Positions 44,529-51,208 of a stretch of 64,000 nucleotides of DNA are shown in pieces. Numbering within the stretch: position 1 is the first letter of the stretch; every line of letters starts with the position of its first letter. The stretch spans positions 1,984,594 to 2,048,593 of the forward strand of contig CP073749.1 in NCBI GenBank assembly GCA_024398055.1. The letters run 5' to 3'. The notes below the pieces were generated by a model. It saw only the letters and a list, made by a program, of their open reading frames with translations. It was not told where the DNA came from and ran no database searches. Both the position numbers and the translations under genes were made by a program. Source of the DNA: a bacterium SCSIO 12741. GTDB taxonomy: Bacteria > Bacteroidota > Bacteroidia > Flavobacteriales_G > Salibacteraceae.

Positions 44529-45683
44529 TTAGTGGACCACCACCCGGTCTTGCCAGAGGAGGTTGTCGCCTGTAATGCGGACCAAATACATACCGGATTG
44601 AACACTTTCTAATCCAATAGTAGTTGTTTGGCCATTGGAGATTTCGCCTAAGTTTTCTTGATAAACCACTTGTCCATTGAGGTCAAACAATTCCAGGTTT
44701 ACGTTTTGGGCATCGCCAGCCGCTTGAAGAAATAGTTGCCCTTCCACTGGATTCGGGTAAAGCGCAAAGTTTACTCCGTATTGCTCCAACTGGTTAATTC
44801 CAACCTCATTTCCACTTCCTCCATTGCCACCGCCATTGTTTGTGGTGTCAGCCTGGTGATCAGGGTGGTGAGGATCCGTCTTGTCATTGGGGTCGTAGCC
44901 GTAGGCCGCGTTCAATACTTCTTTGGTGCCCAGGTGCTGAACAAATACGACCACTTCCAGGTTGTCAAAATCCTCTACTGAGTGCTCTGTTTGGTGATCG
45001 ATAGGATCATTAGCGCTACCCGGTAGGCGATAGTTTCCTTGAAATGAAAAGGAGCCCGTAAAATTGATCGTGGTATCCTTCGGAAGGTCACCGAGAACGA
45101 ACTCACCACCGGAAGGCATCATTTTTTTCAATACCGCTTCAAACTCCGTCTCACCGTTTGATTTCTTGTTGTTGTAAGTGATTTTTTCTGTGATCATTAC
45201 ATACAACTTGTGAACCGGTCCAGCAATATCGCTAAGAGCCTTAAGCTCTACATTGTAATCCAGGGTTTTCCGGTTATCCTTCCACGTGAGGTGTGGAGTG
45301 ATTTGCAGGTAGGAATAACGCTGCAATTCCTGATCCAGCTCCGTAGTTCCCATTTGAGGCGGGAAAAGGTCGTAATCACCGTTAATTTGCAAATTCGGAA
45401 CACCGGTTACGCCATAGAGGCCACGACGGCTTCCCGCTTCTGAGGTGTAGTATGGATCACCCGATCCAGGCCAACTCATTTGGTATTTTACGATGGCAAA
45501 CTTGCCTTTGTAGGCAGCGTTGTTTGCAATGATTTGATTTAAGTTTTCATTTCCACCTTTACACGGTCCGCATGTGGAGCTGGTAAATACTTCAATTAAT
45601 GGAAATCGGGGGATGGAATCCTGAGCCATGGAAATGGAGCCAAAGGCCAGAATAGCAAGCAATGAGGTAGCAATTTTTTTCAT
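44529..45683 (-). CDS. Omp28-like thioredoxin-fold protein with T9SS sorting domain
   Basis: The 384-residue protein has a signal peptide (ends SMAQ, about residue 21) and an Omp28-like domain with a CGPC at residues 38-41 (EVFTSSTCGPCKGG) followed by GVTGVPNLQINGDYD. A Gly/Asn-rich linker leads to a type A T9SS C-terminal sorting domain: FALYPNPVEGQLFLQ, then LFDLNGQVVY and GMYLVRITGD with a final basic-hydrophobic end. It is therefore probably exported and attached to the surface by the type IX system, where it may act on disulfides. Its terminator is at 44470-44505. Confidence 0.93.
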   Translation of the reverse strand: MKKIATSLLAILAFGSISMAQDSIPRFPLIEVFTSSTCGPCKGGNENLNQIIANNAAYKGKFAIVKYQMSWPGSGDPYYTSEAGSRRGLYGVTGVPNLQINGDYDLFPPQMGTTELDQELQRYSYLQITPHLTWKDNRKTLDYNVELKALSDIAGPVHKLYVMITEKITYNNKKSNGETEFEAVLKKMMPSGGEFVLGDLPKDTTINFTGSFSFQGNYRLPGSANDPIDHQTEHSVEDFDNLEVVVFVQHLGTKEVLNAAYGYDPNDKTDPHHPDHQADTTNNGGGNGGSGNEVGINQLEQYGVNFALYPNPVEGQLFLQAAGDAQNVNLELFDLNGQVVYQENLGEISNGQTTTIGLESVQSGMYLVRITGDNLLWQDRVVVH

Positions 45684-45880: not shown

Positions 45881-47329
45881 TTAAAACACCAATTCCACCA
45901 AATAATAGCCACAAGCCGTCAACCAAAGAATTCCAATAAGATTCAATGCAAATCCCACCTTGGCCATCTGCGGCATTCGAATAAAACCACTGGAATAAAC
46001 CACGGCATTAGGCGGTGTAGAAATAGGCATCATAAAAGCACAGCTGGCCGCCAAAGTAACGGGTACGGTGAGCTGATAGGGATGCAGTCCCATGCTTTCC
46101 GATACGCCAATGATGACAGGAATAAGAACAGTAACGAGTGCGACGTTGCTCATCAATTCGGTCATAAACAGCGTGATGGTGACAAGGGCCAAACACATCC
46201 AAAAAGGATCAGCAGCCACATGGGAGGCGATCCACTCTCCGAGCTCGAGAACCAGGCCGCTTTTATCAAAAGCCTGAGCCAGGCTTAGTCCTCCGCCAAA
46301 GAGTAGCAGAATGCCCCAGGGAAGCTTTTCGGTGCTTTTCCAATCCAGTACATATTCTCCTACTTTCCAGTTAACCGGAGTGATAAACATCAAGACCCCG
46401 CCGGCCATGGCGATGGTAGTATTGCTCAATACATTGCCACCCAAAAGCAAATTGAGTTGGCCTTTAAAAACCCAACAAATGGCCGTCAATGAAAAAATGA
46501 TCAGTACATATTTTTCAGCCCTTCGCATGGGCCCCAGATCCTTTAAGCGCTGTTGGAACAATTCCCTGGAACCCGGAATTTCCTGAAGCCGAATTGGGAT
46601 GAGCACCCGGGTGAGCAGCACATAGGCCAGAGCCAAAAGAACCCCTCCGGCAGGAATCCCAACTAAAAGCCATTGTCCAAAACCAATTTCCTGGTGAAAG
46701 TAATCTTCCGCTATTCCAGCAAACACCATGTTGGGGGGCGTGCCCACAAGCGTGATCATCCCACCAATATTGGCTGAGTAAGCGATGCCCAACATCAAAG
46801 CCAGCCGAAAGCGATTAAACTCCCGGTTACCGCCTTCTTTATGCGGCTGTTCTCGTAGCAATTGGTCCACGGACAAGGCAATGGGAAGCATCATGACCGC
46901 TGTAGCCGTGTTGCTAATCCACATACTGAGGAGAGCCGTGGCCAGCATAAAACCAAGAATGATTCCCTTGGGATCGGTACCGGTAAAGTGAATGAGGTGA
47001 ATCGCTATTCGGTAATGCAACTGCCGTTTTTCCATGGCCAAGGCAATGATGAATCCGCCCAAAAACAAAAAGATAATAGGGTGTGCGTACGGAATGAGTG
47101 CCTCCTTAATGGGAAAGAGTTCCAGAAAAGGAAACAGAATCATGGGTAAGAGGGCGGTGATAAAAATCGGAACCACCTCGGCCATCCACCAGATAATCAT
47201 CCAAAAACAAACGCCTAATATCGCTGCTCTGTCGGGATAGTCGGGTAGGGTAAAAAGGGTGATAAGGACCATCCCCAGCGGTCCGATAAAAAAGGCAATG
47301 CGCTTGTATAAAGGGTAATTCTCCGCCAT
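45881..47329 (-). CDS. DASS-family (SLC13) sodium:anion symporter
   Basis: This 482-residue membrane protein has about twelve TM segments. DASS motifs are visible: MWISNTATAVMMLPIALSVD near residue 130 (SNT signature) and FMMPISTPPNAVVYSS near 445 (the second, STPPNAV). Substrates in the family are dicarboxylates, citrate or sulfate; the sequence alone does not decide. It is last in a minus-strand cluster after the DUF4384-like gene with a 13-nt gap, so it is probably co-transcribed with that gene and the caspase gene. Confidence 0.92.
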   Translation of the reverse strand: MAENYPLYKRIAFFIGPLGMVLITLFTLPDYPDRAAILGVCFWMIIWWMAEVVPIFITALLPMILFPFLELFPIKEALIPYAHPIIFLFLGGFIIALAMEKRQLHYRIAIHLIHFTGTDPKGIILGFMLATALLSMWISNTATAVMMLPIALSVDQLLREQPHKEGGNREFNRFRLALMLGIAYSANIGGMITLVGTPPNMVFAGIAEDYFHQEIGFGQWLLVGIPAGGVLLALAYVLLTRVLIPIRLQEIPGSRELFQQRLKDLGPMRRAEKYVLIIFSLTAICWVFKGQLNLLLGGNVLSNTTIAMAGGVLMFITPVNWKVGEYVLDWKSTEKLPWGILLLFGGGLSLAQAFDKSGLVLELGEWIASHVAADPFWMCLALVTITLFMTELMSNVALVTVLIPVIIGVSESMGLHPYQLTVPVTLAASCAFMMPISTPPNAVVYSSGFIRMPQMAKVGFALNLIGILWLTACGYYLVELVF

Positions 47330-47342
47330 GTTGGACAGCTAC

Positions 47343-48146
47343 CTAATTGGAGGTGTCCGACGAATATACATCAAATGAAAAGGTAGTTACCCGACGCTGA
47401 TCAGGCGGAATCTGAAAGATCCAATTCATGATGTCTTTGTAAGTGACTTTGGCGTTAAAGGGAATGTCCTGCTTGAGCGAAACCACTACCATTCGATGTT
47501 GTTCCTTGTACAAGTCGGTTTCCAGCTGATAATCCAATGAAGGCTTAGGGAAGGTGTACTCCTTTTGAGCTTCAAAAACCTTGTTCTTTTCATATTCATT
47601 GGGATAGAGCTGGTAGGCTTCCTGTTTTTCGGCAAACACGAATATTCGGATGTAGGCCTCTTGATTAGGTTTGAGCGTAAAGGTGAGCAAGTCTTTGTTC
47701 ACATAAACCGGTTTGATGCCGTCCATCCAAAGATCGAAGGAAGGGTCCATGCCTTGCTTAAACTTAATTACCTCAATATTGGCTTTTATATGAACTTCCA
47801 ATAGACCCTGATCGTTGATCTTCTTCTCTTCGGAGAGCAATTCAAGATCGGAAATAACGCCCTGCATGTCGTTGAGGATATTGGTAGAGAAAATCTCCTC
47901 CATGTTTCCGTTTTCCTCTTTGACAAAAAAGTCGCTGTAAGACGAAATCTGCTCGGTAACACCCGCCTTTTGCAAAGCCAGTAGCTTGGCTTCATTCAAG
48001 GCCTTTTGCTTCACCTGAGCAGGAGATTCACTTTCGGAACCCACCGCATAGGCCTCCACATTTTTGATGAGGACTTTTTTCGACACTTTTCCAGCCGAGG
48101 CCAGCAGTGTTGAAAGCAGTAACACAAGCAGTAATCCGTGCTTCAT
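47343..48146 (-). CDS. Exported protein with DUF4384-like domain
   Basis: The 267-residue protein has a signal peptide (ends ASAGK). The N-terminal half resembles the LPP20-like fold (KQKALNEAKLLALQKAGV). The C-terminal half resembles DUF4384, a domain often linked to caspase-like peptidases (EAYIRIFVFAEKQEAYQLYP, then a PNEYEKNKV continuation). It lies 11 nt after the caspase gene on the same strand, so the two are probably one operon with a shared function. No enzymatic residues are apparent. Confidence 0.7.
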   Translation of the reverse strand: MKHGLLLVLLLSTLLASAGKVSKKVLIKNVEAYAVGSESESPAQVKQKALNEAKLLALQKAGVTEQISSYSDFFVKEENGNMEEIFSTNILNDMQGVISDLELLSEEKKINDQGLLEVHIKANIEVIKFKQGMDPSFDLWMDGIKPVYVNKDLLTFTLKPNQEAYIRIFVFAEKQEAYQLYPNEYEKNKVFEAQKEYTFPKPSLDYQLETDLYKEQHRMVVVSLKQDIPFNAKVTYKDIMNWIFQIPPDQRRVTTFSFDVYSSDTSN

Positions 48147-48157
48147 GATTTCGGGTA

Positions 48158-49822
48158 TTAGTACAGGTTCCAGTCCTTCCAGGAATCTCCCAGACCTGGA
48201 CTCGCATTGACATCCGGCGTTTGTTCTTTTTCGTTAACGAATACAGCTTTCAGGCCAATGTTTTCTTTCAAGTATTCGTACAAATCGGCATAACTCACAT
48301 CCCCTGAGGTCTCCTGCATTTTTTTCAGGAGGTAATAGGTAAACAAGCCATGTCCTTCGGTATGAAGAGGCTGAGCTGTTTCACTTCCTGAGCAAGCAGA
48401 AAACACTACAATGTTTCCATTGAGGTAGTCTTCTTTCGGAACTATTTTAACGGCACGGGCAGCCAATAGTCCTTGATTACGAGCACCGCCACTAAAACAA
48501 GCGTCGATAAATACGGTAACCCGTTTACACTCGTGCTCAGTCAGCTTTTTGTACACGTCGCTTAGCTTGAAGCCATAGGTTAAATCACTGGCACTTACGT
48601 CCACTGGCATGATGTAGGGATCACGTGAGTTTTGATCGGGAAAACCGTGGCCCGCATAGTATACAAATACTTCGGCCTTACCATCGGTAAGTTCAATGGC
48701 CTTGGAGATTTTTTGCAAGGCTCGGTTCATTTCTACCACCCGGGCGTTCTGTAAGAAGACCACATTTTCATCAGGTACACCCAGCATTTGGTTGCAGTAA
48801 TTCTTAAAGATTTCCGCATCCCGATTGGCATAGTCTACGTTTGATTCAGACGAAAGTGTAGGCTGAAAGGTCTGGTAGTCCTCATTTCCAATAATTAGGG
48901 CAAAGCGATAAGGAAATTTCTCGCCGCGGTTTGGAATGTTTACATCCACATCGGAGATTACGGGTGGAGCAGAAGCTTGAGGTTGAGGTTTGGGAACGGT
49001 TTTTACAACAGGTCGGGTACGAGGTTGAATCACCGCCTGTGCGGGTGGTTTCATCGGCTCGTAATAGTCTACCGGCCATTTCGAAATACCAGCTTCCAAC
49101 AATCGCTTGTCGGTTTTTTCATCAATCTCAACTAAGCGATCTAAGTCTTCCGTACCTCTCAATTTGTTCAGCAGGCTTTTGCGTTGCTTTTCATTGGTGA
49201 GGTAAATTTTGTCTAAAACAACCTGGCGGAATGCTTCCACCTCCCATCTTTCGAAAATATCGTGAATGGCATTTGCCCAGTAGTTGCGCAATCCCAATCC
49301 GCCGGGTTCTCCTTCCATTTCTTGAATGGTAATAATATCCCGGGTGGCAATGTCAAAGAATACTACATGAATAACCGCCTTACGCTCCAGCTTGTTGAAG
49401 GACTCGGCATAAAGCACCATTCCCAATCCGCTGTTTACAGGAAGATCGTATTGGTTGACCGATTCGAAGATTTTTACCTGATCCAAACGGTAGTCGTGAC
49501 TAACCACCAATTGGTCGTGATCCACTGCCCGATTGATCTTGTCAAAGGTGTGGATGTGGTACATGGCTCGACGCTTGTGGAAGAATTGTTCGACGTTATA
49601 TTTCACTCTTTCCTCAAAAAGAATCTCATTCCATCGTGCAAAATAGGAATCCACGATCCGATCCGACTCCTCAAAACCAAAGGTTCCGATCATCTTGACA
49701 TGGGAAAAGTCAATGCCAAAAAATTTCACTTCCTGCTGATAATAAACGTACTGCGTATTCTGGGCAACGGCCGATGAAATGCCCAAAAACAGTGCGAATA
49801 AAAGCAAGTACACCTTTTTCAT
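48158..49822 (-). CDS. Exported caspase-family (C14) peptidase
   Basis: The 554-residue protein has a signal peptide (ends AVAQ, residue 21), an N-terminal region (about 25-270) with no clear domain, a short proline-rich linker, and a C-terminal caspase/metacaspase fold from about residue 305 (FPYRFALIIGNEDYQ). The catalytic dyad is visible: His in VFVYYAGHGFPDQ (about 391) and Cys in VTVFIDACFSGGARNQ (about 442). Metacaspases cut after Arg/Lys; the specificity here is unknown. It is the first gene of an operon with a DUF4384-like protein and a DASS transporter. It acts in the envelope, since it is exported. Confidence 0.9.
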   Translation of the reverse strand: MKKVYLLLFALFLGISSAVAQNTQYVYYQQEVKFFGIDFSHVKMIGTFGFEESDRIVDSYFARWNEILFEERVKYNVEQFFHKRRAMYHIHTFDKINRAVDHDQLVVSHDYRLDQVKIFESVNQYDLPVNSGLGMVLYAESFNKLERKAVIHVVFFDIATRDIITIQEMEGEPGGLGLRNYWANAIHDIFERWEVEAFRQVVLDKIYLTNEKQRKSLLNKLRGTEDLDRLVEIDEKTDKRLLEAGISKWPVDYYEPMKPPAQAVIQPRTRPVVKTVPKPQPQASAPPVISDVDVNIPNRGEKFPYRFALIIGNEDYQTFQPTLSSESNVDYANRDAEIFKNYCNQMLGVPDENVVFLQNARVVEMNRALQKISKAIELTDGKAEVFVYYAGHGFPDQNSRDPYIMPVDVSASDLTYGFKLSDVYKKLTEHECKRVTVFIDACFSGGARNQGLLAARAVKIVPKEDYLNGNIVVFSACSGSETAQPLHTEGHGLFTYYLLKKMQETSGDVSYADLYEYLKENIGLKAVFVNEKEQTPDVNASPGLGDSWKDWNLY

Positions 49823-49921
49823 GTGCGTTAAAAATTAAGGTATAAAGTTAGCAGATAAATCACTCGAATTATCTAATATTCCATATTCAAAGAAAAGACA
49901 GTTCATACAATTATTGGACCA

Positions 49922-51208
49922 ATGTTAAAAGAGCTTAACACCGTGACAGCCCAAGAGGCTGTAAAGATCATCGAATCAGGAAATCGAGTATATGTACACA
50001 CCGCTGCTGCAACACCGAGACACCTGGTAAATGCGATGACGGAACGATACAATGAGTTGAAGGACGTGGAGGTCGTAAGTATCCACACGGAATGGGATGC
50101 ACCGTATGCGTCGGAAGAATATGAAGGCCATTTTTCGGTAAAGACCTTTTTCGTGGGTGGTAATATTCGTGGATCGGTTAACGGTGGTCGGGCGAGTTAC
50201 ATCCCCATGTTTTTGAGCGAGATTCCTCATTTTTTGAGAAGTGGAGCCATGCCCATTGATGTGGCCTTGATTCAGGTGTCACCACCGGATCGTCATGGAT
50301 ATTGTTCTCTGGGTGTGTCGGTAGACGTGAGTGAAGCGGCTACGGATTCAGCGAGACATGTTATTGCGCAGGTAAACCCTCAAATGCCAAGAACGCATGG
50401 AGATGGAATCATTCATGTATCAGCCATTGATGCCTTTGTGGAATGTGAAGATCCGATTTATGAAGTAGGTTTTAAAGAGCCTTCTAATATTGAAATGGCC
50501 ATAGGTCATCACATCGCCAATTTGGTGGAAGATGGGGCGACCTTGCAAACCGGAATCGGCGGTATACCCAATGCGGCACTCAAGGCTTTGGAAAATCACA
50601 AGGACCTGGGAATGCATACCGAGATGTTTAGCGATGGGATCATTCACCTGATGGAAAAAGGGGTATTGACCGGTATTCACAAACACTCCCACCCTGAAAA
50701 AGTGGTGAGTGGATTTTGTCTGGGAAGCCGAAAACTGTACGACTTCATTGACGACAACCCCGGTGTGATTATGTGTGATGTTGGCTGGGTAAACAATACT
50801 GGAGTAATTCGTAAAAATCCCAAGGTGACGGCGATAAACAGTGCCATTGAGGTAGATCTGTTCGGTCAGGTTTGTGCCGATAGTATTGGTTCTCGTCAAT
50901 ATTCCGGAGTAGGGGGACAGATGGACTTCATTCGCGGAGCCGCACTATCTGAAGGCGGTAAGGCCATTATTGCGCTTCCATCCTCTACACGAAAGGGAAT
51001 AAGCCGAATCGTAAGTCGATTGAATGTTGGAGCCAGTGTAACTACTACCCGGGCTCATGTGCATTACATTATTACGGAACATGGAGTAGCCTACTTGTAC
51101 GGCAAAAGCTTAAAGGAAAGAGCCAAAGCGCTGATTGATATTGCAGATCCGGCTCACCGTGAGGAGCTTTATAAAGAGGCTCGGGAGGTTTTGAAGCTAA
51201 AAATCTAA
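49922..51208 (+). CDS. Acetyl-CoA hydrolase/CoA-transferase family protein
   Basis: The 428-residue protein belongs to the acetyl-CoA hydrolase/4-hydroxybutyrate CoA-transferase family. It shows the N-terminal RVYVHTAAATPRHLVNAM, a middle segment with LQTGIGGIPNAALKALENH, and the catalytic-Glu region MHTEMFSDGIIHLME. It ends with the family tail AYLYGKSLKERAKALI. Substrate specificity cannot be decided from motifs. It is divergent from the caspase operon and followed by the multi-hairpin element at 51223. Confidence 0.93.
   Translation: MLKELNTVTAQEAVKIIESGNRVYVHTAAATPRHLVNAMTERYNELKDVEVVSIHTEWDAPYASEEYEGHFSVKTFFVGGNIRGSVNGGRASYIPMFLSEIPHFLRSGAMPIDVALIQVSPPDRHGYCSLGVSVDVSEAATDSARHVIAQVNPQMPRTHGDGIIHVSAIDAFVECEDPIYEVGFKEPSNIEMAIGHHIANLVEDGATLQTGIGGIPNAALKALENHKDLGMHTEMFSDGIIHLMEKGVLTGIHKHSHPEKVVSGFCLGSRKLYDFIDDNPGVIMCDVGWVNNTGVIRKNPKVTAINSAIEVDLFGQVCADSIGSRQYSGVGGQMDFIRGAALSEGGKAIIALPSSTRKGISRIVSRLNVGASVTTTRAHVHYIITEHGVAYLYGKSLKERAKALIDIADPAHREELYKEAREVLKLKI

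Follow-up and report, generated by a model that had tools for sequence, protein, structure and literature searches.

The window analysed here is a stretch of 64,000 nucleotides from the Salibacteraceae bacterium SCSIO 12741 (contig CP073749.1, forward-strand positions 1,984,594 to 2,048,593), part of a single-contig genome of 5.1 Mb, and it carries on its minus strand three closely spaced genes in the order caspase, DUF4384 protein and DASS transporter. Our principal finding is that the caspase and the DUF4384 protein form a real pair, which is kept in most genomes of this caspase subfamily. We consider it probable that the two proteins constitute an envelope-located protease module, made of an exported orthocaspase and a dedicated DUF4384 partner, to which the transporter does not belong. 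A first-pass annotation of this DNA had described the three genes as one operon on a single strand with gaps of 11 nt and then 13 nt, and these coordinates are reproduced.

A caspase linked to a DUF4384 protein in most genomes of its subfamily

The caspase gene (48158..49822, on the minus strand like the other two) encodes a protein of 554 amino acids, which is read as a signal peptide, a CsgG-like N-terminal domain, a basic proline-rich linker and a caspase core. The Peptidase_C14 domain (residues 306-540; 48203..48907) matches PF00656 with 78.6 bits against a cut-off of 21.4, and the His/Cys dyad, which had been reported as intact, is confirmed in its motifs, with His392 (48647-48649) in YYAGHG (residues 388-393) and Cys442 (48497-48499) in DACF (residues 440-443). 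These two residues and the presumed pocket residues Asp335 and Asp440 are unchanged in 12 of 12 aligned cores. According to PMC6426788, the S1 pocket of TbMC2 and of orthocaspases holds two aspartates, Asp95 and Asp211 in TbMC2. Asp335 and Asp440 were equated with these by motif matching, not by alignment to TbMC2, and from this correspondence a specificity for Arg or Lys at the P1 position is predicted. The linker preceding the core is basic and proline-rich on direct reading and is a plausible site of self-cleavage. Alignment also reveals a segment before the core, S-x-VD-x-NIP (residues 290-297; 48932..48955), of which the VD-x-NIP part (with VD or ID) is found in 11 of 16 subfamily sequences and is altered in the other five; this motif and the N-terminal domain described below are additions to the earlier annotation. 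A sequence search of the PDB with the caspase gave no match (E up to 0.01), and its score of 59.8 bits against the EACC1-associated caspase family NF047832 lies under the curated cut-off of 140.

The second gene (47343..48146) encodes a protein of 267 amino acids with a DUF4384 domain at residues 152-210 (47517-47693; PF14326, 48.2 bits, cut-off 27), for which a PDB sequence search likewise gave no match (E up to 1). A profile of the caspase core, built from the 12 aligned cores, matched 38 of 395 genomes of the class, presumably Bacteroidia, at E <= 1e-40. Our census covers the 31 genomes with at least 250 bits plus genome G002, 32 in all; one genus (g60, family f45) contributes 11 of these, which makes counts by family fairer. 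Among the 310 open reading frames (ORFs) within 6 kb of the subfamily caspases in these 32 genomes, DUF4384 is the most recurrent family, in a census that favours it because an iterated profile was used to assemble its set and BLAST alone for the other families. A DUF4384 gene is linked to the caspase in 24 of the 32 genomes and in 11 of 14 families, on the caspase strand in 24 of 24 cases. On this evidence we reject chance adjacency of the two genes, and the suggestion that the DUF4384 protein is a natural partner of the caspase is supported. The gap between the two genes is at most 15 nt, or the genes overlap, in 18 of 31 genomes (G002 counted, the window not), part of the overlaps stemming from ORF starts placed too far upstream; the order of the two genes varies, the DUF4384 gene lying downstream of the caspase here and in part of the genomes and upstream of it in others. 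In the reverse direction, a same-strand caspase ORF is present in the fetched stretch for 12 of 13 genomes with a DUF4384 relative, the lone exception being a 3.4-kb contig. Seven genomes with weaker caspases stand outside the census; three of these (G042, G273 and G355) also carry a same-strand DUF4384 relative, and the other four (G337, G339, G394 and G410) were left out altogether.

DUF4384 is described as a domain of some caspase homologs (PMC6426788, PMC7475262), and such fusions support a contact between the caspase and its partner. The term occurs also in PMC11229311, PMC6886795 and PMC8283722, and in the available parts of this literature we found no separate DUF4384 partner gene described, which is not proof that it is unpublished. 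Among the matches listed for exported or periplasmic caspases of Bacteroidetes, the arrangement was not found by title or by the start of the abstract.

The next most recurrent neighbour family is an exported protein of about 210 amino acids (10 genomes, 4 families), the scanned member of which has no Pfam match, and a lipoprotein-like family recurs in three genomes, with an LPP20 match of its scanned member below the cut-off. When profiles were compared, no relation was seen between the DUF4384 family and six small exported neighbours (probability 16.4). An Ig-like protein lies near the caspase in 6 genomes of 3 families by BLAST and in 9 of the 32 genomes and 6 families by a profile of its own; 12 of 12 matches of this profile among the ORFs searched sit in caspase loci, 8 of the 12 being its seeds, and the protein is possibly a third component. 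Its recurrent exported domain (TGDxG...I.W.VL) is followed by varied tails and starts at L036:6750, L082:9794, L084:10490, L083:4997, L085:10113, L121:7397, L120:9030, L080:3485 and 4436, L086:9870, L135:7825 and L222:7999. At L121:5230-11649, in family f52, a subfamily caspase faces nrdA-like and nrdB-like genes in convergent orientation; the window shows the like, which could be a coincidence.

Bacterial proteases of the caspase type have roles in defence and cell death, and the pair could be a defence or self-killing effector, whose caspase responds to phage or damage by killing the cell from its place in the envelope. A PADLOC scan of the three gene products returned a partial match for the caspase (42.1 bits, E 1.6e-11) and no match for the DUF4384 or DASS protein. 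This partial match would be in keeping with such a role, as would the patchy distribution of the caspase and the presence of a subfamily caspase on a putative phage contig from IMG/VR (L222:7999-10795) with a DNA methyltransferase gene nearby. The neighbourhood in the window, however, includes genes of the nrdA, nadD and gmk types (the names nadD and gmk come from reading the sequence), the caspase reads as exported, and the same genome has a second caspase, which has no signal peptide by reading and is clustered with SMODS and SAVED proteins. We regard a defence role of the pair as distinctly unlikely. The second caspase (327 amino acids; L141:1547-6379, at about 4.02 Mb of the genome) belongs to a CBASS-like cluster with two SMODS proteins and one SAVED protein. 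The caspase of L222 stands beside an Ig-like exported protein, and a tail gene is also near.

Predicted export and the exchangeable N-terminal module

The N-termini of the caspase and of the DUF4384 protein read as classical signal peptides. For the caspase, the signal peptide (about residues 1-20; 49763..49822) is recognised by direct reading and by a crude rule, and the model places a helix at residues 2-14. In addition to reading by eye, the rule was used in a loose and a tighter form. The loose form passes both proteins but flags an internal helix of the DASS protein too. The tighter form passes 30 of 33 subfamily caspases (the window proteins left out) and 191 of 509 other ORFs of at least 200 amino acids. 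The predicted export of the caspase, as first claimed, is well supported; that of the partner is less so by the rule. The accompanying claim that an exported caspase is unlike most prokaryotic metacaspases is less sure. A survey of 671 such sequences (PMC3501461) has no location information for 529 of them and assigns 98 to the membrane, 30 to the outside of the cell, 7 to both and 7 to the inside, and the N-terminal helices of most of the 98 may be signal peptides. The same survey predicts 217 metacaspase operons of mixed content.

The module that precedes the core varies across the subfamily and consists of WD40 repeats (G083, G087), MORN with a marginal CARDB (G144) or CARDB (G068). The caspases of the window and G002 have at this place a domain of about 190 residues (about residues 21-210 in the window; 49193..49762). 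Elsewhere this domain mostly stands alone, as an exported protein of about 180-270 amino acids. Among 120 relatives, G002 alone besides the window has a match over the whole length of the caspase, the others covering its N- or C-terminal part. The family of the N-terminal domain has 201 confirmed places in named genomes, and analysis of the best 80 of these (L142 to L221) finds Dyadobacter, Bacteroides, Fluviicola, Fulvivirga and Saprospiraceae among its carriers and an ORF matching the caspase profile at the locus of G002 (L142) only. These loci, of which L197 holds the Bacteroides member, outline a large unnamed exported family of about 200 amino acids with the pattern GxDxS ... GFGxRNYWA across Bacteroidota. 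The domain itself has no Pfam match above the cut-off, five stand-alone members have none in Pfam or NCBIfam, and profile comparison with the DUF4384 family (probability 12.8, in the signal peptide region only) showed no relation.

An AlphaFold2 model of the N-terminal domain, made from 55 sequences, has a pLDDT of 93.9 and a pTM of 0.85. The top match in Foldseek is Chlamydia CT253 (E 5.8e-4), the sole one with E below 0.001; the next rows hold a flagellar ring entry, an HpaA-like protein, LpoB, CsgG and FlgT, with endonuclease V shortly after. VIA-align is led by Cj1090c (Z 6.9), HpaA (6.6), CsgG (6.5) and PelC (6.2), and its list also holds PqiC, FlgT, TolB, LpoB and LptE-type entries. Envelope proteins head both lists. 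On the model, a fold of the CsgG/PelC/FlgT/TolB-N type is likely, and an envelope function of the domain is only suggested.

The predicted export and the presumed Arg/Lys pocket would also suit a nutritional or housekeeping role in the envelope, where the caspase would break down proteins that are imported or misfolded and the DUF4384 protein would be its chaperone, and metacaspases may help to degrade phytoplankton polymers in Bacteroidetes (PMC4933709). However, the scattered presence of the caspase (31 of the 395 genomes reach 250 bits) and its swapped N-termini fit a specialised role better, and we think this alternative unlikely.

The DASS transporter as a probable lineage-specific neighbour

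The third gene (45881..47329) encodes a DASS (SLC13-type) sodium-coupled anion symporter of 482 amino acids, which scores 248.8 bits with PF00939 (cut-off 27) and 308.2 bits with TIGR00785 (cut-off 198.6). In genome G002, of a related genus, the same order of caspase, DUF4384 and DASS is found, with a gap of 12 nt before the DASS gene and with the same divergent CoA-transferase-like gene. The identity between the window and G002 is 55% for the caspase, 63% for the DUF4384 protein and 61% for DASS, and since order and short gaps are kept despite this divergence, the arrangement is more than chance. Among named relatives, the nearest to share this operon is the metagenome-assembled genome 'Crocinitomicaceae bacterium SAT141' (PAVO01000019.1).

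One may ask if the three genes form one functional unit, in which the pair either governs anion uptake (di/tricarboxylate or sulfate) by DASS or reacts to it. The order and tight spacing repeated in G002 would be consistent with it, as would a published remark linking metacaspases to sulfur genes in Bacteroidetes contigs (PMC4933709) and the match of DASS to solved SLC13 carriers, among which the citrate and dicarboxylate carriers rank above the sulfate one. Yet DASS is linked to the pair in only two of the 32 genomes, those of the window and G002, and the surroundings of DASS at 11 other loci of the family show no match to caspase or DUF4384. In G017 and G025 the DASS orthologue adjoins nadD-gmk-yicC without caspase or DUF4384, visibly between nrdA and nadD in G025. 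The functional unit with DASS is in our estimate very unlikely, and DASS as a core part was not kept. As regards conservation of the operon, which the first-pass annotation had named as a check, the caspase and the DUF4384 gene do stand together in most caspase-bearing relatives; the three-way linkage is found in 2 of 32, not in most, and the three genes do not stand as a conserved system.

Relatives of the DASS protein occur in 31 of 41 genomes, and those of the DUF4384 protein, among the relatives searched, in three genomes besides that of the window; DASS sits elsewhere in G010 and G022. In a nadD/gmk/yicC tree of 28 family genomes, the genome of the window (G000) is joined with G005 (support 99) and these two with G002 (support 71), and G010, G017, G022 and G025 make up a neighbouring group (support 100). 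G005 retains the CoA-transferase gene and has no match to DASS, caspase or DUF4384. Most simply, DASS would already have stood by nadD when the pair arrived beside it in the ancestor of G000, G002 and G005, and G005 would then have lost the pair; other histories, including independent gains, may apply. The link of the pair to the transporter is mostly positional.

On the other side of the caspase gene lies a divergent intergenic region of 99 nt (49823..49921), presumably a promoter region, followed on the plus strand by the acetyl-CoA hydrolase/CoA-transferase gene (49922..51208), which adjoins the pair in G002 and occurs without it in G005. A Bacteroidota-type promoter pattern has no match in these 99 nt; in the whole window it has two matches against a chance mean of 2.78, neither of them near the three genes. 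Between nrdA and DASS (44529-45683) the window encodes a protein with a T9SS sorting tail, whose Omp28 and thioredoxin-type matches are weak and below the cut-off.

Proposed function and comparison with known systems

Judged from sequence, the pair most probably functions as an envelope protease and its dedicated partner, the protease bearing an N-terminal module that can be exchanged. The caspase would be exported through its signal peptide, and its N-terminal domain, going by its fold, may attach or oligomerise it in the periplasm at an envelope assembly, for example at the inner face of the outer membrane. The C-terminal core with the His/Cys dyad would cut after Arg or Lys, as its residues suggest, and the basic proline-rich linker together with the S-x-VD-x-NIP segment might serve as a hinge or activation segment. 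Linkage points to the DUF4384 protein as the dedicated partner, which could be an activator, inhibitor, scaffold or substrate. Core and partner stay the same across the class, in contrast to the N-terminal module, which therefore most likely decides where the protease is located or what is sensed. DASS may share the transcript; it was probably already at the site and would lie outside the machine.

Several observations weigh against this proposal. No recognised DUF4384 gene lies within 6 kb of the caspase in 8 of the 32 genomes (G154, where the caspase is at a contig end, G195, G213, G242, G258, G267, G322 and G376), and DUF4384 often co-occurs with kinase domains (PMC6426788) and hence is not caspase-specific. 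The tighter rule passes 18 of 28 DUF4384 relatives only (the window proteins left out), several of the failing ones still looking by eye like signal peptides with Trp/Gly-rich cores. The AlphaFold model of the partner, made from two sequences, is poor (mean pLDDT 56.7), and Foldseek with it gave no match at E below 0.001, so that nothing was drawn from the list. The N-terminal domain is itself weakly matched in fold, with a best Z of 6.9, TM-scores of about 0.2-0.4 and unrelated folds close behind; from row 23 of the VIA-align list (Z <= 5.3) ITPase, actin-capping protein and a ribosome hibernation factor appear. Finally, the survival of the three-gene order in G002 down to 55-63% identity leaves room for a role of DASS.

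A bolder and rather doubtful extension of the two-protein module is that it represents an unnamed, widespread periplasmic surveillance protease of Bacteroidota, whose core pair is combined with interchangeable sensors (CsgG-like, WD40, MORN, CARDB), often in the company of the protein of about 210 amino acids or the Ig-like protein, and which cuts envelope targets on damage. If so, the pair might be likened to an extracytoplasmic analogue of sensor-caspase systems. Bacterial caspases are discussed mostly as cell-death or defence proteases, and a conserved exported pair with swappable N-termini would put caspase-type proteolysis in the envelope. One protease, one partner and one variable module would offer a concrete handle on such a role.

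Among known systems, the transporter is an ordinary member of the DASS (SLC13/INDY) symporters: the family cut-offs are exceeded, and its SNT and SNV motifs, which we take to bind sodium and substrate, align with human NaCT; the position of the gene alone is unusual. The caspase shares with prokaryotic orthocaspases and bacterial metacaspases (PF00656) the catalytic domain, the His/Cys dyad, the presumed acidic pocket residues and a variety of accessory domains such as WD40. It differs from those known in its predicted export, in an N-terminal domain unnamed in Pfam and NCBIfam, in the S-x-VD-x-NIP segment and in that its DUF4384 part is a protein of its own. Orthocaspases with a C-terminal DUF4384, namely an alphaproteobacterial QC-dyad group and some cyanobacterial proteins, likewise join caspase and DUF4384, but there both domains are in one protein, with a trypsin-like domain also present in the QC-dyad group (PMC6426788), whereas here they are encoded by two genes and the dyad is intact. 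The N-terminal domain (caspase residues ~24-207) resembles the envelope accessory proteins CsgG, PelC, FlgT, TolB-N and LpoB in predicted fold, with modest scores and an identity of 4-12% over the first six rows of VIA-align, and it differs from these in lacking a lipobox by reading and in being fused to a protease.

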